Source: Verrucomicrobiota bacterium
Lineage (GTDB): Bacteria > Verrucomicrobiota > Verrucomicrobiia > Limisphaerales > VHDF01
NCBI GenBank assembly: GCA_016871495.1
Contig: VHDF01000048.1
Coordinates: 1 to 33,244, forward strand
DNA: 33,244 nucleotides
Reading direction: 5' to 3'
Shown here: positions 15,351-29,834 of the stretch, piece by piece
Layout of the letters: each line of letters starts with the position of its first letter
Position numbering within the stretch: the stretch's first letter is position 1
Notes under the pieces: generated by a model
Seen by the model: only the letters and a program-made list of their open reading frames with translations
What the model was told of the DNA's origin: nothing
Databases searched by the model: none
Position numbers and translations under genes: made by a program

Positions 15351-16016
15351 ATGACTACCGCAAAGCACGGCTTACTGAAAACAATCGTGGCAATCGCTGC
15401 GACCACAGCTGCGTGGACTGCTGCGAATGCGCAAGGCCAGCTTGAGATTGTTTACAACAATTCATCTGTACCCCTTAATGCGAGCTACGGCAGCGCCTTG
15501 GAGTTCGGCGATCAGGTTTCCCTTCAGGGATTGAACCGGGATCTTTATCGCTTTGAGTTTGAGTACAACGCGAGTCTGGCACCGGCTGCATCCAAGCAGG
15601 GCTTGGTGCGGATGTATGCGAATGATGGTCCGGGAGGCGCTCCGGGGACATTGCTCTTCGAGACTGATCCATTCGCGCTTCCTACGGGTCAAGGGACATT
15701 GGACTTTTCCCAGATTGGAGGGGTAAAGCTGCCGAATCAATTGACTTGGACCTTGGCCACCGCCGGTTTAAGCGGTAGTGAGAAATTCGAGGTCCAACTT
15801 TTCAGTCCTCCGTCGATCGGAAAGAGCGCCGATGATTTTTGGCAGAAGAATGCCTTCGGCGGTTGGACCTTGACGGTTCTGAGCAGTGCCGCTGGATCGG
15901 CTCCTGCGAATTTCAGCGCGAGGATTACAGCGGTTCCCGAACCCACAACGATGGCGTTTGTGTTGGGTGGACTCGCTCTGATGGGAGTAGCCGGTTATCG
16001 CCGCAAGAATTCCTAG
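15351..16016 (+). CDS. PEP-CTERM sorting-signal protein
   Basis: This 221-residue exported protein has an N-terminal signal peptide (KTIVAIAATTAAWTAANAQ) and ends in a PEP-CTERM tripartite tail. The tail is VPEPTT, then the hydrophobic segment MAFVLGGLALMGVAGY, then the basic RRKNS. Such tails are recognised by exosortase (EpsH/XrtA type), which cleaves near PEP and moves the protein to the surface or into extracellular polymer. No exosortase gene is in the window. The body is beta-rich and low in charge, with FEFEYNASLAPA and GGWTLTVLSS segments, and resembles choice-of-anchor-type domains, but I cannot name it. It stops with TAG, is preceded by a candidate promoter and followed by a clear terminator, so it is a single-gene unit. 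Confidence 0.9.
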   Translation: MTTAKHGLLKTIVAIAATTAAWTAANAQGQLEIVYNNSSVPLNASYGSALEFGDQVSLQGLNRDLYRFEFEYNASLAPAASKQGLVRMYANDGPGGAPGTLLFETDPFALPTGQGTLDFSQIGGVKLPNQLTWTLATAGLSGSEKFEVQLFSPPSIGKSADDFWQKNAFGGWTLTVLSSAAGSAPANFSARITAVPEPTTMAFVLGGLALMGVAGYRRKNS

Positions 16017-19773: not shown

Positions 19774-19838
19774 GAGCGGGTTGGTTTTACAACTTGAATC
19801 CGGCGTGTGCTGATGGTTCGCTTCTTCATCATCATGGG

Positions 19839-20192
19839 ATGGAAGAGTTTAGGTTGGTTTCAAACGTGGTGAAATCCCGGTTTGGGCATGCGAATTGCTC
19901 TCAGACATTTCATGATGTGGTTACGGCATGGGCTGGGCGGGGGAGAGGGCGGGTCGCCTGGATGTTGGTTGCCTGGCTTTTGGCGCCGGGCTTCGAGGGG
20001 CATGGGGCGGTCGATTATGTCCATTTGGCATGGGACGCGAATACCGAGACCAACGTGGCCGGGTATCGACTTTATTACGGGGTTCGAGGGGAGGCAGTCA
20101 CCAACAGGGTCGACAACCGGAAAGCGACGACGAGGAGGCAGGATGGGTTGCGTGCCGGGGCCTCCTATTTCTTTTTTGTCACGGCCTATTAG
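19839..20192 (+). pseudogene. 5' part of the giant FN3/repeat protein gene, ended by an in-frame TAG
   Basis: Reading from ATG 19839 (or GTG 19917), the protein has an exportable hydrophobic segment, RVAWMLVAWLLAPGFEGHGA. It then has the start of a fibronectin type III domain: VHLAWDANTETNVAGYRLYYG and GLRAGASYFFFVTAY. A TAG at 20190-20192 stops it exactly where homologous domains continue with a residue such as Asn. The same frame goes on with DKDFESDPSNVVLW, the expected last strand of the FN3 domain, meets a second TAG at 20289-20291 and then stays open to 26462. So this is the signal-peptide-bearing beginning of the gene at 20319, separated from it by two amber codons. As written it would give a secreted fragment of about 117 residues. 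Confidence 0.75.
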
Positions 20193-20318
20193 GACAAGGA
20201 TTTCGAGAGTGATCCGTCGAATGTGGTGCTCTGGACCGCTCCCACGGCGGCGGAAGGGTTGGGGCACGGGGCAGGAGTGACGCTTTGGTAGCGGGGCGGA
20301 ACTGAGCCTTCGACCTAC

Positions 20319-23300
20319 GTGGTCAAACGGTCTGATCGGAAAGAAGGTGGATTTGAAGCTTTGGCGACCAACAATGTTCCCTCGTTTGAAGATGGCACGG
20401 CGGAATTGGGGCGAACGTATTTTTACCGGGTTCAAGTCAGGAACAGCGCGGGTGAGAGTCAAGATTCGGACGTGGTGGAGGTGCGGCCCCTGGCCGGGCC
20501 ATCGACGCTGTCAGCGGAAGGGAGCCAGGGGAGCATTCGATTGTCCTGGTCGCCGCTGGAGGGTGCTCGGGACTACACCCTTGTGCGTGCGGAGACGGCA
20601 GGAGGGCCGTTTACCGCGATTGCCACGGGCGTTTTAGGATTGGGGTACGAGGATCGCGCGGTGGAGATTGGGAAGCGATACTTTTACCGGGTTCAAGCTC
20701 AGAAGAGCCCCGGAGTTTATTCGGGGTTTTCGGGGCTGGTGATGGCGCAAACCGCGCCCCCTGCCCCGCATCCTCTCGAGGTGGAACTCTTCGCGGGCGG
20801 AACCGTGAGATTGCGCTGGACGGCTTTGTCAGGGGTTGCGGACGAGTTTGTGGTGGAGTCTTCCGCGGATGGTGTTGGGTATTCGGAATTGGCGCGAGTC
20901 GAGGGCACGCAACGATCCGCCGTCTTGGGCGGCTTGGGGAATGGAACGGTTCGATTCTTTCGGATGCATGCGGCCAATGCTTCGGGCCGATCGACAGATT
21001 CGGTGGTGCGGAGGATCGAGTTTCCCACTTGGGCAGCCAATGTGGTCTTTGCTCCCGAAGCGGGAGCGAAGTTGCTTCCGGGTTATGTTCTCGACTCGGG
21101 GAAACCCTTCGGAGCGACGGCGGAAGGTTCGAAATTGGGCTGGCGGGTGGATCAGAGTGAACGGGTGGCGAAGCGCTCTGCATTGTTTGCTCCGGATGTC
21201 CGGTATCAGGGTTCGATTTTGGTGGAAAAGAGCGCGGTTTGGGAACTGGAAGTGCCTTGGGGAAGCTATCGAGTGCGGTTGGTGGTGGGAGATGCGGAGA
21301 CGCCGCAAGCGACGCATCAGTTTCTCCTTGAGGGACTGCCGACTTCCGAAGTGGAGACCGGCATGGAAGCGCCATGGGCCGAGATTGAGATGAAGCTTTT
21401 TGTTCAAGACGGAAGGCTGACGCTGGCACCCGGACCTGCTTCGATTCATTCGCGCCTTTGCTTTATCGATGTTTTTGCGGAGGCACCCTCGCTGCCCTCT
21501 GTGGTTGAACAACCCGTCTCGCAGAAGTTGGTGGAGGAGGAGGCGCTGGTTTTGGAATCCTCGGTTTCGGGGGGGACGGAACCCATTTCCTGGCAATGGT
21601 TCTTCAATTTGAAGCCGCTCGCAGGAGCCCGCTCGGCCCGGCTTGAGCTGCCTTCCATCCAACCTTCGCAAAGTGGGGCTTATTTCGTGGTGGCGAGCAA
21701 CGATTTTGGAGCGGTGACGAGTCGAGTCGCAGTGGTAGAAGTCGAGGCCGTGGAAGATCCCCCCACCCTGGACATTGTTCCCAGTTTCCAGATCGTATCG
21801 GGTTTGTCCTCTTCCGTGGTCAAGTTGACGGGGATTTCGAGCGGTGCCGCGGACGAGCGTCAGACGCTGTCCTTAACCCTTTCGAATTGGAATCCGGGTC
21901 TTCTCAGCCGGGCAGATTTGAATTATCGCTCGCCCGAGACCATGGGAGAAGTTGAGCTGTCCGCAAACACAGGAGTGACCGGGACCGTGGTTTTGACGGT
22001 GATGGTTTCGGACGGGAAGGCGGAAGTGGCGAGGACATTCACGGTGTCGATTGCCCGGAAGGCGGAGGACGCTTTGCAAATCGAGGCGGAGTCCGGGGAA
22101 AGGAACGCCGTGTTCGAAGTGATCGGGGAAGCGGGCGCCTCCGGGGGAAGAATTGTCAGGCCGTCGGCCGACGGATTCGGACGTCTGGCTTTTCCATTCT
22201 TTTTGGATCGCGGAGGCGACTACTTTGTGTGGTGCCGGTTGATGAGCGAGGAATCGCTTGGGGTATCTTTTCGCGCGGCGGTGGATCGCGAGCCCGTGGA
22301 TACGGAGGAGACCGGTTTGGGAGCCGCGCGTCCGAATGTTTGGCGCTGGGTTAGGCTGAGCAAGCTGGTGAACGGAGATCCGAAGGTTCTTTCGCTTACG
22401 CGCGGCCCGCATCAATTGGTATTTCAGGCCCCGAAGGCCAAGGCCAGGCTCGATACGCTTTATGTGACCGACGATCCGCTCTTTCTGCCGCCCGGAGTGC
22501 AGGCCAACTTTCCACCCACCTTGAATCCGCTGGAGGATTTGGTGTTGGAGGAGGGCGCCCCTGCGCAGGTTGTGGCGCTTTCGGGCATTGGATCCGAGGG
22601 GGTGTCGGAGAGGCAGAACTTGATTGTGACCGCGGTTTCTGGAGATCCGCGTTCGATCCCCAACCCCAATATCAGTTACTCGAGCCCTTCGGCCAACGGA
22701 ACTCTCACATTCACACCGAGCCACACGGCCTTCGGATCCGTCCCCATCACCGTGACCGTGAATGACGGAGGCGGTGTGAACAATGTGGCGCGCCGAACTT
22801 TTCTGGTGACCCTCCAGCCTCGAAATCAACCTCCCAGACTCGGATCGATTCCGAATCAGACGGTGGTGAAGGGACGGGGCTTTCCGCCATTGACCTGGGT
22901 TATCGGCGATCGTGAATCAGCCGCCGACCAGCTCGCGGTGCGGGCGTTTTCGTCGAATCCCGCGCTGCTCCCGCAAGCGATGATCTCCGTGACCGGCTCC
23001 GGTTCCAATCGCGTGGTGCAGTTGGCGCCAATCCCGAACGTGGCGGGGAGCACGTCGGTGACGCTGGAAGTGACCGATGGAAATGGGAGCGTGTCCACGA
23101 CACGATTCAATGCCTCGGTGACGGAAAACCGTATGCCGCCCACGATCAGCCGGCTTCCGGACTTTGAATTGGAGGAGGACGCGGCCTTGGGGCCTTTGAC
23201 TTTCGTGGTGGCAGATCCTGACAGTCCTGTGGAGGGATTGGTGGTCACGGCGACGGCTGCCGACGCGCGGCTCCTTCCGGCCTCCGGCCTTATCCTGGGA

Positions 23301-26300
23301 GGGGAAGGAGTTGAGAGGACCTTGATGGTGATACCGGCGAAGGACGCGCTTGGGACGACCAAGGTGACTTTGGCGGTGAGGGACGACTCGGGGATGCAGG
23401 CGAGTTCGACATTCAGCGTGGTCGTGCTTCCCTTGAACGACCCTCCCCAAATGTCTGCGGTGGGCGATCGCACCCTCACTCTGCATTCCCCTTCGAACAC
23501 GGTGTTTTTGACGGGCGTATCGGCCGGGCCGGGGGAGGATCAACCCTTGATGATTCGGGCGGTTTCGGAACGTCCGGATTTGATCCCGAATCCGCGGATT
23601 GTCATGGCAGGCGGGGACGCGCGTTCAGCATCGTTGGTTTTGGGTCCGTTCTTGAGAGTGGCGGAACGGGTTCCCATTCGAGTGACTTTGGACGATGGCA
23701 AGCCGGTGCGGAATACCTTCACTCGAGTCTTTCATGTGACGGTTTCGGCTCCGAGCTCCGATGCGGCTCCGACCTTGTCGGCGATCCCGGATCAAACCGT
23801 GGTGGAAGACGGGACGCTGGCGGTGCCCTTCACGGTCAGTGACGAGACCTTGTCGGCCCATCAACTGAGGTTGACGTTGTCCTCTTCGCTGGCTTCGTTG
23901 CTTCCGGAGAGCACGGTTGAATTTCAAGGGGTCGGGACCAACCGGCTGCTCATCCTGAGGCCCCGGGCGCAACAGTCGGGTGTGGCCTTGCTGACGATCT
24001 TTGCGTCGGATGGCAGGCTGAGCGGAAGAACATCGTTCAAGTTGACGGTCACGCCGGTCAACGATCCGTCGGCCATGGATCCGATCGGGGACCTGGTTGT
24101 GGACGCGGCCGATCCCAGTTTGACGCACAGTGTGACGATCTCGGGCCTTTCATCGGGCCCCGTCAATGAATCCGGCACGTTGACGGTGAAGGTCGCCTCG
24201 AGCCGGACGGATCTCATTCCGCATCCGGAGGTGCGTTACGTTTCGGGATCGGAGTTTGCGAATGTGTTGTTGCGGCCTGCGGCGGGGAAGAGTGGATCGG
24301 CCAGGATTACGATGGAGGTTCGCGAGCTGGCGGATGCGGCATCTGTGACAGTGAGGGAATTCAAAGTTTACGTGCGTGCGGCGGGGAACAAGGACCCGGA
24401 AGTTTCGTTCCTGGAGGACGTGACCCTTCTGCAGAATTTTGAAAGCGGGATCATTCGATTTCGGGTCAATGACGCCGAAACCGCGTCCGCAAACTTGGAG
24501 ATCTCGGCCAGCACTTCGAATCCCGAGCTGCTTCCGGAGTCCGGGATTGTGCTGGGCGGCTCGGGAACGAATCGAACGTTGACCCTGAGACCCGCGAGGG
24601 ATCGAACGGGTTTCACGATGATAACCCTGAGTGTTGCGGATCAGCAGGGCGGGGTGGGGAGCAGCAGTTTCTTTGTCATCGTGGATCCGGCCAATCAGCC
24701 TCCGAGGATCGAGGGACTTTCTCCTCAGACGGTTCCGGCTCAGGATCCTCGATTCGAGCTGGAGTTTACCGCTTGGGATCTGGAGACGTCGCCGGAGATG
24801 ATCGAACTCAGTGTCACTTCCAGTGATGAAGCTTTGTTTCCTCCGGAGGGGCTTTCCTTGGCGAGTGTCGGGCGATTTCGTCTTTTGACCGCGCGCGGAA
24901 ACGCGGGGCGTTCCGGACGGGCCACCTTGAAGATTGTCGCGTCCGATGGTGCGCTGAAAACCGAGGGAACGGTCGAGGTTTCCGTCCACGCGAACCCCGG
25001 CCCGCCTTCGCTGGGTTTATTGTCCGACGTGATCTTGGAGGACGGCAAAGTTTTCGAAGAGATCCCCTTGGACCTGAGTGATCCCGACACTCCCCTGGGC
25101 CAACTCATCGTCACGGTGAAGACGTCGAATCCCGCCGTGGTTCCCGAAACCGGTTTGTCGGTTGCCCATGAGTTCTCGAAGTGGAAATTGCGCGTTTCGC
25201 CTGCCGCAGGTGTTTCGGGCCGTTCTGTGATTGGGGTCGAGGTGAGCGACGGAATTCACAAGGTCCAGCAATCGTTCGAGGTGCGTGTGATGGGGGAGAA
25301 CCGGCCTCCGACCCTGGACAAGATTGGCGATATCACGCTGGCTCAAGATGGGTTGCCGAGAACCATCGTGTTGACGGGAATCAGTCCCGGGAAGGGCGAG
25401 TCCGGGCAGCCTCTTTTGATTTCGGCAAGCTCCAGCGATCCGGCAGTGATTCCTCATCCGCTGGTGGGTGCGGTGGACGCCAGTGGAGCCGCCATGCTGA
25501 CCGTGGCTTCGGTGGCAGGATCGCGAGGTGTCGTGACGATCCGGGTGATTTTGAACGACCTGCAGCCGAAACAAGCGACCACGGTTCGCGAGTTCAAAGT
25601 GACGTTCAACGCGGCGCCTTCGATTTCGGCCCTGGACGCTGTCGCCGTGCCGGAGGGTGGTGTTTCGAAACCCATTGAATTTACGCTCAGCGATGAAGAT
25701 GACGAACTTGCCAAGGTGTCTCTCTCGGCCCGTTCCTCGCATCCGGGTGTGGTTGATCCGGCGGGCGTCCTGATGGAGGGGACGGGGGCGACGCGGAGCG
25801 TGCGCGTTCGTCCGGTGGCGGGTGCCTTCGGATCAAGCGTGGTGACTTTGGTGGCGCGGGATGCGGCGGGCAACGAAGCGACGTCCTCACTGGTGGTGGT
25901 GGTGGATCCGGTGGAAAACCCGCCCACGCTGGGTGCCCTTCCTGATTTGGAAATAGCGGCAGCGGACCGCTGGGTGCCGATCCGGATTGGAGGGATTTCG
26001 ACGGGTTCCCCATTCGAGAGGGGGGTGTTGGAGGTTGTGGCCGTCTCTTTGGCTCCGGGAATCATTCCTGATCCGCTCCTGGCCTATACCTCACCTGAGG
26101 CGGAGGGGATGCTTTATCTTGCTCCGTGGCCTGGACGGTTTGGGACGGCGGAGATTCGAGTGTCGGTGCTGGAGTATGGAAGCGGGGCGGGGAGGACCTC
26201 GAGGACGTTCCGGGTCACTCGGCTGGAGCCTGAGCGGATTCCAGAATTGCGAGCGGAATGGGCCGAGGAAGGATTGATTTTGACGTGGAGCTCGGATCGG

Positions 26301-26462
26301 ACGGCTGCCTATGTGTTGCAGCGTTCGGACGATTTGGGGAACCCCGGAAACTGGAAAGAGGTGGGTGTAGCGGCGGCGCTGCAGGACGGGCTTTATCGGG
26401 TGGTCATGCCGGTTGACGGAGCCCGGTTCTTTTTCAGACTCTGCAAGGAATGCAGCCGATGA
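20319..26462 (+). CDS. Giant multidomain repeat protein (FN3, CBM-like, Ig-like and tandem cadherin/Ig-like domains)
   Basis: The open part encodes 2047 residues. In order: the rest of an FN3 domain, then two more FN3-like domains (to about 235); a malectin/CBM-like domain (about 240-395, with VLDSGKPFGATAEGSKLGWRV); an Ig-like domain (395-480, ISWQWFFNLKPL...SGAYFVVASNDFG); one tandem repeat; a second CBM-like domain (585-730, IEAESGE...GGDYFVWCRL); twelve more tandem repeats of about 100 residues beginning PPTL/PPRL (730-1967); and a C-terminal LTWSSDRTAAYVLQRSDDLGNPGNW...FFFRL module common at the end of verrucomicrobial surface proteins. No catalytic domain, membrane anchor or PEP-CTERM tail is seen. 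A surface adhesion or glycan-binding role is inferred. GTG 20319 is an arbitrary start inside an FN3 strand (TYVVKRS); the natural start lies upstream of two TAG codons. Confidence 0.8.
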   Translation: MVKRSDRKEGGFEALATNNVPSFEDGTAELGRTYFYRVQVRNSAGESQDSDVVEVRPLAGPSTLSAEGSQGSIRLSWSPLEGARDYTLVRAETAGGPFTAIATGVLGLGYEDRAVEIGKRYFYRVQAQKSPGVYSGFSGLVMAQTAPPAPHPLEVELFAGGTVRLRWTALSGVADEFVVESSADGVGYSELARVEGTQRSAVLGGLGNGTVRFFRMHAANASGRSTDSVVRRIEFPTWAANVVFAPEAGAKLLPGYVLDSGKPFGATAEGSKLGWRVDQSERVAKRSALFAPDVRYQGSILVEKSAVWELEVPWGSYRVRLVVGDAETPQATHQFLLEGLPTSEVETGMEAPWAEIEMKLFVQDGRLTLAPGPASIHSRLCFIDVFAEAPSLPSVVEQPVSQKLVEEEALVLESSVSGGTEPISWQWFFNLKPLAGARSARLELPSIQPSQSGAYFVVASNDFGAVTSRVAVVEVEAVEDPPTLDIVPSFQIVSGLSSSVVKLTGISSGAADERQTLSLTLSNWNPGLLSRADLNYRSPETMGEVELSANTGVTGTVVLTVMVSDGKAEVARTFTVSIARKAEDALQIEAESGERNAVFEVIGEAGASGGRIVRPSADGFGRLAFPFFLDRGGDYFVWCRLMSEESLGVSFRAAVDREPVDTEETGLGAARPNVWRWVRLSKLVNGDPKVLSLTRGPHQLVFQAPKAKARLDTLYVTDDPLFLPPGVQANFPPTLNPLEDLVLEEGAPAQVVALSGIGSEGVSERQNLIVTAVSGDPRSIPNPNISYSSPSANGTLTFTPSHTAFGSVPITVTVNDGGGVNNVARRTFLVTLQPRNQPPRLGSIPNQTVVKGRGFPPLTWVIGDRESAADQLAVRAFSSNPALLPQAMISVTGSGSNRVVQLAPIPNVAGSTSVTLEVTDGNGSVSTTRFNASVTENRMPPTISRLPDFELEEDAALGPLTFVVADPDSPVEGLVVTATAADARLLPASGLILGGEGVERTLMVIPAKDALGTTKVTLAVRDDSGMQASSTFSVVVLPLNDPPQMSAVGDRTLTLHSPSNTVFLTGVSAGPGEDQPLMIRAVSERPDLIPNPRIVMAGGDARSASLVLGPFLRVAERVPIRVTLDDGKPVRNTFTRVFHVTVSAPSSDAAPTLSAIPDQTVVEDGTLAVPFTVSDETLSAHQLRLTLSSSLASLLPESTVEFQGVGTNRLLILRPRAQQSGVALLTIFASDGRLSGRTSFKLTVTPVNDPSAMDPIGDLVVDAADPSLTHSVTISGLSSGPVNESGTLTVKVASSRTDLIPHPEVRYVSGSEFANVLLRPAAGKSGSARITMEVRELADAASVTVREFKVYVRAAGNKDPEVSFLEDVTLLQNFESGIIRFRVNDAETASANLEISASTSNPELLPESGIVLGGSGTNRTLTLRPARDRTGFTMITLSVADQQGGVGSSSFFVIVDPANQPPRIEGLSPQTVPAQDPRFELEFTAWDLETSPEMIELSVTSSDEALFPPEGLSLASVGRFRLLTARGNAGRSGRATLKIVASDGALKTEGTVEVSVHANPGPPSLGLLSDVILEDGKVFEEIPLDLSDPDTPLGQLIVTVKTSNPAVVPETGLSVAHEFSKWKLRVSPAAGVSGRSVIGVEVSDGIHKVQQSFEVRVMGENRPPTLDKIGDITLAQDGLPRTIVLTGISPGKGESGQPLLISASSSDPAVIPHPLVGAVDASGAAMLTVASVAGSRGVVTIRVILNDLQPKQATTVREFKVTFNAAPSISALDAVAVPEGGVSKPIEFTLSDEDDELAKVSLSARSSHPGVVDPAGVLMEGTGATRSVRVRPVAGAFGSSVVTLVARDAAGNEATSSLVVVVDPVENPPTLGALPDLEIAAADRWVPIRIGGISTGSPFERGVLEVVAVSLAPGIIPDPLLAYTSPEAEGMLYLAPWPGRFGTAEIRVSVLEYGSGAGRTSRTFRVTRLEPERIPELRAEWAEEGLILTWSSDRTAAYVLQRSDDLGNPGNWKEVGVAAALQDGLYRVVMPVDGARFFFRLCKECSR

Positions 26463-28435
26463 AGCGACCCTCAGGGAATGCGACGATCCGACCGGTGCAT
26501 GCCTGGACGCGGGTGATGGCGGGGGCCTTGATGTGTGGGATGGCGGCGGGAATGATTTCTCGTGGCGCTACTCCGGCAGAGCAGTTCGAGAAAGTGATTC
26601 GTCCGATCCTGGAGCGAAAGTGTTCCGAATGTCACGGGACCGACCAAGCGAAGGGTGGTTTCAATATTGAGCTCTTTCGTGATTTTGCCTCGGTCACCAA
26701 TGATTTGGATCGTTGGAAGGTGGTTTTCGAGCGGGTGCAAGCCTTCGAGATGCCTCCGAAAAAAGCGGGGGAGTTGAAATTTGACGAACAGCGAAAGCTC
26801 GTGGAGTTTTTGCGTGGCTTACCCAAACCCGCGGCGTTGAATTGTGATGAACTGGCCTCGGATCGCACGGCCAACTTTTATCGGGGTTATGTGATGAGCC
26901 GCCGGCTCAATCGGGCCGAGTATGCGAACACCATTCGAGACACGCTGGGGGTGGAATTGGATTTGGAGGAACTGTTGCCGGCGGATGGAGGGGGTGGAGA
27001 AGGGTTTGATACGACGGGGAGCGCCTTGTTTCTGTCTCCGATTCATGTGGAGAAGTACATGGAGGCGGCGGAGAAGGTGATGGAGAAAGTGCTCCCGGAG
27101 TCGAGGGGGAGACTCAGCGCGAGGGCGACGGCGGCGCGGAAGCGGTTGGGCGCGAATGCTCCTTGGTGGAGAAATCCATCCCGAGCCGATGCCCGGCGTT
27201 TCCTGGACCGGCTTGCGCGTGAGGCTTGGCGCCGTCCCCTGAAGGAAGGGGAGGTGGATGGGTTGCTGGAGCTCTATGACCGGGGCCGGCGTCGTGGCGA
27301 CTCTCATTGGAGTTCGTTGAGACTGGCATCGAGGGGAGTCTTGGTCTCGCCTCATTTCTTGTTCTTGGCGGAGCCTGAGCCGGAGGAGGCGGGGGTTCGT
27401 CCACTGGCCTCGGTGCCACTTGCGAGCAAATTGAGTTATTTTTTATGGTCCTCGAAGCCGGACGAACGATTGATGCGGTTGGCTGAGAGCGGGAGTTTGC
27501 TCGAGACCAACGTTCTTCGGGCCGAGGTGAGGCGCATGCTGGCGGATCCCAGGGCGGAGGCTTTGGGCGAGCGGTTTGCCTTGCAATGGCTGGACTTGGA
27601 TCGGCTTGGGACGGAATCGCGGCCCGACGCAACACGGTTTCCTGAGTTCGACCGCGAGCTTGCGGCATCGATGCGGGGAGAAGTGGTTCGGTTTTTCAAC
27701 GATCTGGTCCGGGGCGACCGATCCCTTTTGGAGCTGATCGACAGTCGGCATACGTTTGTTGATGCCAGGCTGGCGATGCATTACGGATGGAGTTTCCGAA
27801 GCTCGGGTGACGGCTGGGAGCGGGTAACCTTGCCGACCCGGCAGCGAGGAGGCTTGGTGGGGATGGCGGCAGTTCACGTCATGAATTCGTACCCCACGAG
27901 AACGAGCCCTGTGCTGCGCGGCCGTTGGGTCTTGGAATCGTTGTTGGGAGAGAAGGTTCCGCCTCCTCCGGAGGGGACCCCCACGCTGGAAGAGAAGGAT
28001 GTTGAGACCACGCCCTTGTCTTTGCGGCAGCAACTGGAGAAGCATCGGACGAAGGCGGAATGCGCCGCCTGTCATGATCGGATGGATCCGCTGGGTTTTG
28101 GCCTGGAGCCTTTCGATGTCTTGGGGCGATGGCGGGAAGCGGAGAGAGGCATCAAGATTGACGCCCAGGGCATTTTACCCTCGGGCAAGCGATTCGAGGG
28201 GCCTGCCGGGTTGCGGGAAGTTTTGATGGAGCGGAAGGATGCCGTCATGAAGCATTTGGCAAGGAAGCTGGCGGGGTTTGCCTTCGGGAGGGAACTCAAC
28301 AAGTATGATGATTGCGTGATTGATCGGGCGATGGAAGCGATGCAGCATCACGGTTACAAACCCTCGGTGCTGGTGGAGACGCTGGTCACGAGTTTTCCAT
28401 TTCGACACCGGTTTTATCCCAAGCAGGAACCCTGA
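26459..28435 (+). CDS. DUF1592-family cytochrome c-like protein (DUF1587/1595/1592/1588/1585)
   Basis: This 658-residue exported protein has a signal-peptide-like segment (RVMAGALMCGMAAGMISRGA, residues about 18-37). It has a heme motif CSECH at 55-59; DUF1587 with RRLNRAEYANTIRDTLGV; DUF1595 with FLDRLAREAWRRPL; DUF1592 with SPHFLF and SKLSYFLWSSKPDERL; DUF1588 with MNSYPTRTSPVLRGRWVLE and a second motif CAACHDRMDPLGFGLE near residue 535; and DUF1585 with LARKLAGFAFGREL and LVTSFPFRHRF. This set is standard for planctomycete/verrucomicrobial proteins presumed to act in the periplasm; the reaction is unknown. ATG 26459 overlaps the stop of the giant gene as ATGA and has AAGGA nine bases upstream, so it is preferred to ATG 26450. 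Translation is likely coupled to the giant protein. Confidence 0.93.
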   Translation: MKRPSGNATIRPVHAWTRVMAGALMCGMAAGMISRGATPAEQFEKVIRPILERKCSECHGTDQAKGGFNIELFRDFASVTNDLDRWKVVFERVQAFEMPPKKAGELKFDEQRKLVEFLRGLPKPAALNCDELASDRTANFYRGYVMSRRLNRAEYANTIRDTLGVELDLEELLPADGGGGEGFDTTGSALFLSPIHVEKYMEAAEKVMEKVLPESRGRLSARATAARKRLGANAPWWRNPSRADARRFLDRLAREAWRRPLKEGEVDGLLELYDRGRRRGDSHWSSLRLASRGVLVSPHFLFLAEPEPEEAGVRPLASVPLASKLSYFLWSSKPDERLMRLAESGSLLETNVLRAEVRRMLADPRAEALGERFALQWLDLDRLGTESRPDATRFPEFDRELAASMRGEVVRFFNDLVRGDRSLLELIDSRHTFVDARLAMHYGWSFRSSGDGWERVTLPTRQRGGLVGMAAVHVMNSYPTRTSPVLRGRWVLESLLGEKVPPPPEGTPTLEEKDVETTPLSLRQQLEKHRTKAECAACHDRMDPLGFGLEPFDVLGRWREAERGIKIDAQGILPSGKRFEGPAGLREVLMERKDAVMKHLARKLAGFAFGRELNKYDDCVIDRAMEAMQHHGYKPSVLVETLVTSFPFRHRFYPKQEP

Positions 28436-28436
28436 T

Positions 28437-29834
28437 ATGAAGACGAGAGACTGGCGGATTCCGCGACGGACTTTCTTGCGCGGGGCAGGTGTCGTGCTGG
28501 GGCTGCCCTTGCTTGAGGCCATGGGGCGGTTGCTCCCACTTTCCTCGCCCTCCGCCTGGGCAGGGGGCACGACGGCAAGCACGGTACAGGCGCCGGTGCG
28601 CATGGCGTGCCTGTATTTTCCGAACGGCGTGTGGGAGAAGACGTGGTTTCCGATTCGGTCTGGGCGTGATTTTGATTTGCCGTTTGCCCTGGAGCCGCTG
28701 GCTCGGCACCAAGCGAGTTTGACGGTTTTCTCGGGCTTGGACAAGCGCCACAGCCATGGCGGGGATGGACACTACGCGAAGACGGCGAATTTCCTGACCG
28801 GGCTGCCGGTGCGCAAGACGGCTGGCAAGGATATCGACGTCGGGGGATTGTCCATCGACCAGCTCTGCGCTCAGAACATTGGGAGGCATACTCCACTGCC
28901 GTCGCTCGAACTCGGGATCGACCCGGTTATTTCAGGCATTGATTCCGTGGTGGGCTACACGCGGCTGTATGGTTGCTATATTTCCTGGCGGGCGCCGGGG
29001 CAGCCTGTCGCCCGCGAGATCCATCCGCGGCAGGCCTACGAGAGGCTTTTTGGCGTGTTGCGGGCGAGGAATCAGACGGGGAAGGAGCGAGGAAGGACCG
29101 CGGATGAGATCGCCTTGCTGGACCGGGTGATGGAGGATGCCAGCCGGTTGCGGGGCCGGCTGGGGAGGGATGACCGGCACAAACTTGACGAGTATTTGGA
29201 TTCCGTTCGAGATGTGGAGCGGCGGTTGGAGTTTTTTTCCAAGCCGGATGGGAGAGTGTGGCGTCCGCCGACTTCGCCCGGCGAGGATTTCGCGATTCCC
29301 CAAGGGGAGCCTGGCGATCATCAGGAACACGTTCGATTAATGCTCGATCTCATGGCCCTGGCTTTTTGGACGGATTCGACGCGCATTGCGACCTTCATGT
29401 TTGCCAACGATGTTTCCGGGAAAAATTTTGGCAAGCTGGTGCCCGGCACGAGTGGGTCTCATCACGAATTCAGCCATCACCAGAGCAAGGCGGAGAAGTA
29501 CGAACCTTATTCCAAAATCAATCGCTGGCATGCCGAGCAGCTTGCCTACTTCATGGACAAACTTTCTGCGGTGCGCGAAGGGGAGCGGAGTCTTTTGGAC
29601 AACAGCATGGTGTTGTGCGGATCGAGCATGTCGGACGGCAACCGGCACGATCCGGCCAATCTGCCGATTCTTTTGGGAGGCCGGGCGGGTGGCGGGATCA
29701 AGGCGGGGCGGCACATTGCGTCCCCCAAGGGCACTCCTCTTTGCAACCTCTACGTGTCGATGTTGGAACGCATGGGATCACCCGTGGAGAGGTTTGGGGA
29801 CAGCACAGGAGCCATGGATTTGGGAGAAGCCTGA
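28437..29834 (+). CDS. DUF1552 domain-containing protein (Tat-type signal)
   Basis: This 465-residue protein starts one base after the DUF1592 stop codon. The N-terminus IPRRTFLRGAGVVLGLPLLEAM is a twin-arginine-like signal. DUF1552 landmarks follow: RMACLYFPNGVWEKTWFP, a GLDKRHSHGGDGHYAKTANFLTG segment, SIDQLCAQNIG, LDEYLDSVRDVERRL, TDSTRIATFMFANDVSG and HHEFSHHQ, with SMVLCGSSMSDGNRHDPANLPILLGG near the end. Length is normal. DUF1552 genes nearly always follow DUF1592 genes in this group of bacteria, as here; the fold is related to DUF1501 and the sulfatase/phosphatase superfamily, but activity is unproven. The frame upstream of 28437 is a shadow. The next gene is convergent and ends 36 bases away. 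Confidence 0.93.
   Translation: MKTRDWRIPRRTFLRGAGVVLGLPLLEAMGRLLPLSSPSAWAGGTTASTVQAPVRMACLYFPNGVWEKTWFPIRSGRDFDLPFALEPLARHQASLTVFSGLDKRHSHGGDGHYAKTANFLTGLPVRKTAGKDIDVGGLSIDQLCAQNIGRHTPLPSLELGIDPVISGIDSVVGYTRLYGCYISWRAPGQPVAREIHPRQAYERLFGVLRARNQTGKERGRTADEIALLDRVMEDASRLRGRLGRDDRHKLDEYLDSVRDVERRLEFFSKPDGRVWRPPTSPGEDFAIPQGEPGDHQEHVRLMLDLMALAFWTDSTRIATFMFANDVSGKNFGKLVPGTSGSHHEFSHHQSKAEKYEPYSKINRWHAEQLAYFMDKLSAVREGERSLLDNSMVLCGSSMSDGNRHDPANLPILLGGRAGGGIKAGRHIASPKGTPLCNLYVSMLERMGSPVERFGDSTGAMDLGEA

Follow-up and report, generated by a model that had tools for sequence, protein, structure and literature searches.

Two in-frame TAG codons in a giant secreted repeat-protein gene of a Verrucomicrobiota bacterium probably act as ordinary stops in a recently broken gene

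In the draft genome of a Verrucomicrobiota bacterium (G000; 5.06 Mb, 201 contigs, 97% complete), the gene for a giant secreted repeat protein is interrupted near its 5' end by two in-frame TAG codons, and we consider it probable that both are ordinary nonsense codons acting as stops in a recently broken gene. The window analysed here is the whole of one contig of this draft (C48; 33,244 nucleotides), and its gene content, which includes DUF1501, DUF1549/1553, DUF1592, DUF1552 and PEP-CTERM, would fit the planctomycete-verrucomicrobial group. The relevant features of the window are as follows.

19839..26462, + strand: giant FN3/Ig/cadherin-like secreted protein, whole frame (ORF list, translation, Pfam)
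19917..20009, + strand: probable signal peptide VVTAWAGRGRGRVAWMLVAWLLAPGFEGHGA, start codon uncertain (by eye; upstream of both stops)
20016..20219, + strand: first FN3 domain, which holds the first TAG (Pfam fn3 at residues 60-127)
20190..20192, + strand: premature TAG no. 1 (translation; Asn or Asp in most of 23 aligned homologues)
20240..20490, + strand: second FN3 domain, which holds the second TAG (boundaries by eye; homologues L250, L251 and others)
20289..20291, + strand: premature TAG no. 2 (position of the core Trp that is conserved in the FN3 fold)
20319..26462, + strand: stop-free remainder of 2047 codons with FN3/Ig/Big_9/cadherin-like repeats (starts GTG, ends TGA)
26450..28435, + strand: next gene, PSCyt/PSD domains (DUF1592 family), with a 13-base overlap with the end of the broken frame
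28320..29834, + strand: DUF1552 (HXXSHH) gene, after the DUF1592-family gene

An earlier note on this DNA had placed both TAGs in one and the same frame, and translation of 19794-26465 agrees: the frame 19839..26462 (+) is single and is interrupted solely by TAG 20190-20192 (context FFVTAY-TAG-DKDFESDPSNVV) and TAG 20289-20291 (context VTLW-TAG-RGGTEPSTYVVKRS), and its next stop after the second TAG is the TGA at 26460-26462. The read-through protein gave Pfam matches to fn3, Ig_3, Big_9 and Cadherin_5. Across the first stop the first FN3 domain is up to 50% identical to its relatives, the second domain aligns with relatives across the second stop, and the FN3 consensus residues flanking both stops are well preserved. 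The FN3 sequence around the stops had been described as continuous, and homologues indeed span both sites as unbroken FN3; therefore, the frame is really coding on either side of the stops. In a coding-potential scan the signal was weak in 19839-20000 and positive from about 20001 on, and because of this weak signal the true start probably lies downstream of 19839, for example at GTG 19917. At the level of a crude hydropathy scan, it is plausible that the sole signal peptide lies upstream of both stops. No further lesion was found in the translation of the 2047 codons that follow the second TAG. The absence of a stop from these 6.1 kb had been held to argue against an old pseudogene, which is fair, but it suits a recent lesion equally with readthrough.

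Searches of the genome contigs with either the gene itself or its DUF1592 neighbour detected no sister-species orthologue. Two FN3/Ig-repeat secreted proteins from the same order, L250 (genome G038) and L251 (genome G082), are 33-34% identical to the window protein over residues 147-647 and 150-545 and share with it FN3 followed by a common domain; unlike the window gene, theirs are intact, shorter and have another N-terminal domain. Both proteins start with apparent signal peptides, which counts against an internal restart (for example at GTG 20319) in which a cytoplasmic protein of 2047 residues would be the selected product. Such a restart would account for the open remainder and for both stops lying upstream of it. 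However, no Shine-Dalgarno-like sequence is visible ahead of 20319, the start would lie within an FN3 domain, and a repeat protein of FN3/Ig/cadherin type that lacks a signal peptide would end up in the wrong place; we find this explanation scarcely credible.

At the first site the 23 aligned homologues carry Asn (12), Asp (5), Thr (3), Ser (2) or Gly (1), and at the second site Trp is found in the four clean alignments without gaps, as well as in L250. None of the aligned homologues has a stop at either site, and none of them is a close orthologue. Asn and Asp codons are two bases away from TAG, so the ancestral codon of the first site is uncertain; the Trp codon is one base away. Because the residues differ both in kind and in distance from TAG, it does not seem, from these alignments, that TAG encodes a single amino acid at the two sites. 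The residues in relatives are also mixed at other TAG-broken genes of the same genome (listed below), namely Ala in a Transketolase_N gene, Lys, Gln or Arg in a chemotaxis receptor and Glu in PilM, and a single suppressor would not yield such a mixture. At a TAA site in a transglutaminase gene relatives most often have Gln, and at a TGA site in a DUF3160 protein Trp is the most frequent residue among seven relatives; both sites fit transitions, from CAA and TGG respectively.

These other broken genes come from 1.6 Mb of the genome, a sample that was searched by a coding-potential scan and then by Pfam and comparison with relatives. At least six further genes are each interrupted by one stop (TAG in four, TAA in one and TGA in one), a count that is a lower bound as the scan detects only lesions with long flanks; a stricter scan setting missed the chemotaxis receptor (MCP) and DUF7305 genes.

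C8: Transketolase_N gene, TAG
C2:58156-59418 (L108:18156-19418): chemotaxis receptor gene, TAG
C3:34428-35744 (L111:14428-15744): PilM gene, TAG and frameshift
C10: DUF7305 protein gene, TAG
C2: transglutaminase gene, TAA
C3: DUF3160 protein gene, TGA

From the codon usage, random nonsense changes are expected to give TAG in 51%, TAA in 30% and TGA in 19% of cases. With both window TAGs included, the observed ratio of TAG:TAA:TGA is 6:1:1, and the binomial chance of at least 6 of 8 being TAG is ~0.16. Nothing singles out TAG, and its share matches random point mutation. A TAG-specific pattern, considered for the transketolase, MCP, PilM and DUF7305 genes, was accordingly dropped once the TAA and TGA lesions and an expected TAG share of 0.51 were considered. 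As about half of all random nonsense changes in this draft give TAG, a few TAG-broken genes are to be expected with the code unchanged. Other copies or homologues may ease the loss of two of the genes: a second receptor gene, 47% identical, lies just upstream of the chemotaxis receptor (C2:57127-58005), and a DUF3160 homologue is present in the same genome at C14:31045. PilM has, in addition to its TAG, a frameshift of one base at a run of A, and the pilus operon carries on downstream. Eight raw frameshift candidates were found, of which two read as real, in PilM and in one esterase-like gene; the latter, on C14 near 34812, is an apparent frameshift seen from the sequence alone. A control scan of 400 kb of a relative (G013) found no interrupted gene where ~1.25 would be expected at the rate of G000, a number too small to reveal a difference between the two genomes.

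Of the 2207 codons of the window gene, both stops fall within the first 151 (7%), the chance of which, computed after the fact, is ~0.004, and the chance of two stops lying no more than 33 codons apart, also computed after the fact, is ~0.03. This 5' clustering is mildly unusual; a local consensus error would be the best account of it, and selection acting on the downstream part would be another. Since the two stops are 99 bases apart, a distance that about one short read would cover, consensus error is the main rival to recent gene breakage. Draft-assembly errors of this kind (consensus error, strain mixing or low coverage), with the gene intact in the living cell, are a possibility to be taken seriously that we nonetheless judge unlikely. 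The fragmentation of the draft, the spacing of the stops amid intact FN3 residues and the several other conserved genes with single lesions, one of them with an additional homopolymer-linked frameshift, all fit such errors; however, the TAA, TGA and second-TAG sites look as though Gln and Trp codons had undergone real transitions, and frameshift candidates are few, so indels are not a general problem of the assembly.

The window gene shows the features of a gene broken by nonsense mutation: the sequence is coding on both sides of the stops, intact homologues have sense codons at these sites and similar lesions occur across the genome. We counted against this reading the 5' clustering, the 2047 clean codons, the Asn and Asp at the first site and the preserved FN3 consensus. 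Like recent bacterial pseudogenes, the window gene has a conserved frame broken by single stops, in a genome with lesions of all three codons; it differs from them in having two close 5' stops and 6.1 kb that are otherwise free of lesions. We infer that termination really happens and that the lesions exist in the organism itself and did not arise in the consensus. If both TAGs act as ordinary nonsense codons, translation would begin near 19839-19917 and yield a signal peptide followed by the larger part of one FN3 domain before RF1 ends it at 20190, which would leave a useless fragment. A ribosome leaking past 20190 would halt again at 20289, and the downstream 2047 codons would not be produced as an exported protein. 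The lesions would be recent, and the rest of the gene would hence be without visible decay. Early termination could also, by polarity, lower the expression of the overlapping DUF1592-family gene.

The earlier note had offered a recent double knock-out, an assembly error and readthrough of TAG as explanations; the first two are retained here, and the third is unlikely. TAG is an ordinary terminator in this organism: in the 1.6 Mb sample it ends 121 (~19%) of 638 called genes, the others ending in TGA (383) or TAA (134), and the TAG-ended frames of the coding-potential scan include apparent ribosomal-protein genes (read by sequence). In the window, the ORF list confirms that the PEP-CTERM gene ends in TAG, at 16014-16016, as had been reported. 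RF1 is present (478.6 bits against an NCBIfam cut-off of 423). Of the two search targets that had been proposed, PylRS did not emerge, nor did an amber suppressor among the tRNAs read. The tRNA search gave 56 matches genome-wide in the 97% complete draft, with anticodons assigned by ARAGORN or, where uncalled, by hand if a standard arm was visible, and no CUA anticodon was found among the tRNAs read in either way; one weak tRNA of an array on contig C16 (L084:16301-16381, below the Rfam cut-off) was not clearly readable. For PylS the only match was a sub-threshold cross-match (26 bits against a cut-off of 178). The window gene thus resembles cases of pyrrolysine decoding in its in-frame TAG, and its genome differs from them in having no PylS, no CUA tRNA among those read and inconsistent residues at the sites.

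Five TAG-bearing genes in 1.6 Mb might suggest that this organism has recoded TAG, in whole or in part, as an amino acid. However, the presence of RF1, the use of TAG as a terminator, the tRNAs read, the absence of PylS and the inconsistent residues at TAG sites led us to reject general and partial recoding, and Shulgina and Eddy 2021, who screened more than 250,000 genomes, state that every bacterial stop reassignment known so far affects UGA (PMC8629427); recoding of TAG is close to refuted. The same authors warn that stops in pseudogenes can mimic recoding to Trp (PMC8629427).

A leak confined to this gene is a different matter: near-cognate tRNAs could read through the two TAGs at low frequency, so that little full-length protein is exported and the stops serve as a brake on an expensive product. 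In-frame stops are reported to be widespread in bacterial genes, often with flanks under purifying selection, and frequent readthrough has been proposed for them (Belinky et al. 2021; PMC7918605), and the remainder of the window gene is open. As in the cases of Belinky et al., an in-frame TAG lies within an otherwise well-kept gene; their analysis used only stops common to two or more genomes, whereas the stops of the window gene were found in one genome only (PMC7918605). Moreover, two serial stops would multiply the loss, no suppressor is among the tRNAs read and no stimulatory structure is evident, the RNA after either TAG being in no way unusual (z +0.5 and +1.0). The residues in relatives differ by site, and comparable TAA and TGA lesions exist in the genome. 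We therefore regard leaky readthrough as improbable, and its more specific form, in which serial ambers limit a costly exported protein to small amounts while the gene stays under selection, as more doubtful still. If true, tandem amber readthrough despite RF1 and without a suppressor tRNA would be surprising.

The array on C16 mentioned above is a dense run, at ~44.2-52.7 kb (L084:8200-16700), of at least 16 tRNA or tRNA-like genes on one strand, which score 38-62 bits with the Rfam tRNA model. It also contains a Ro60/TROVE gene (L084:11564-13255) and a Y-RNA-like match to YrlA (L084:10007-10136; 40.5 bits, under the cut-off of 69). The outer genes on C16 (PSD1/PSCyt2 and CBM9) look chromosomal and not phage, and tRNA-Thr(UGU) and tRNA-Arg(GCG) were read in the draft only within this array.
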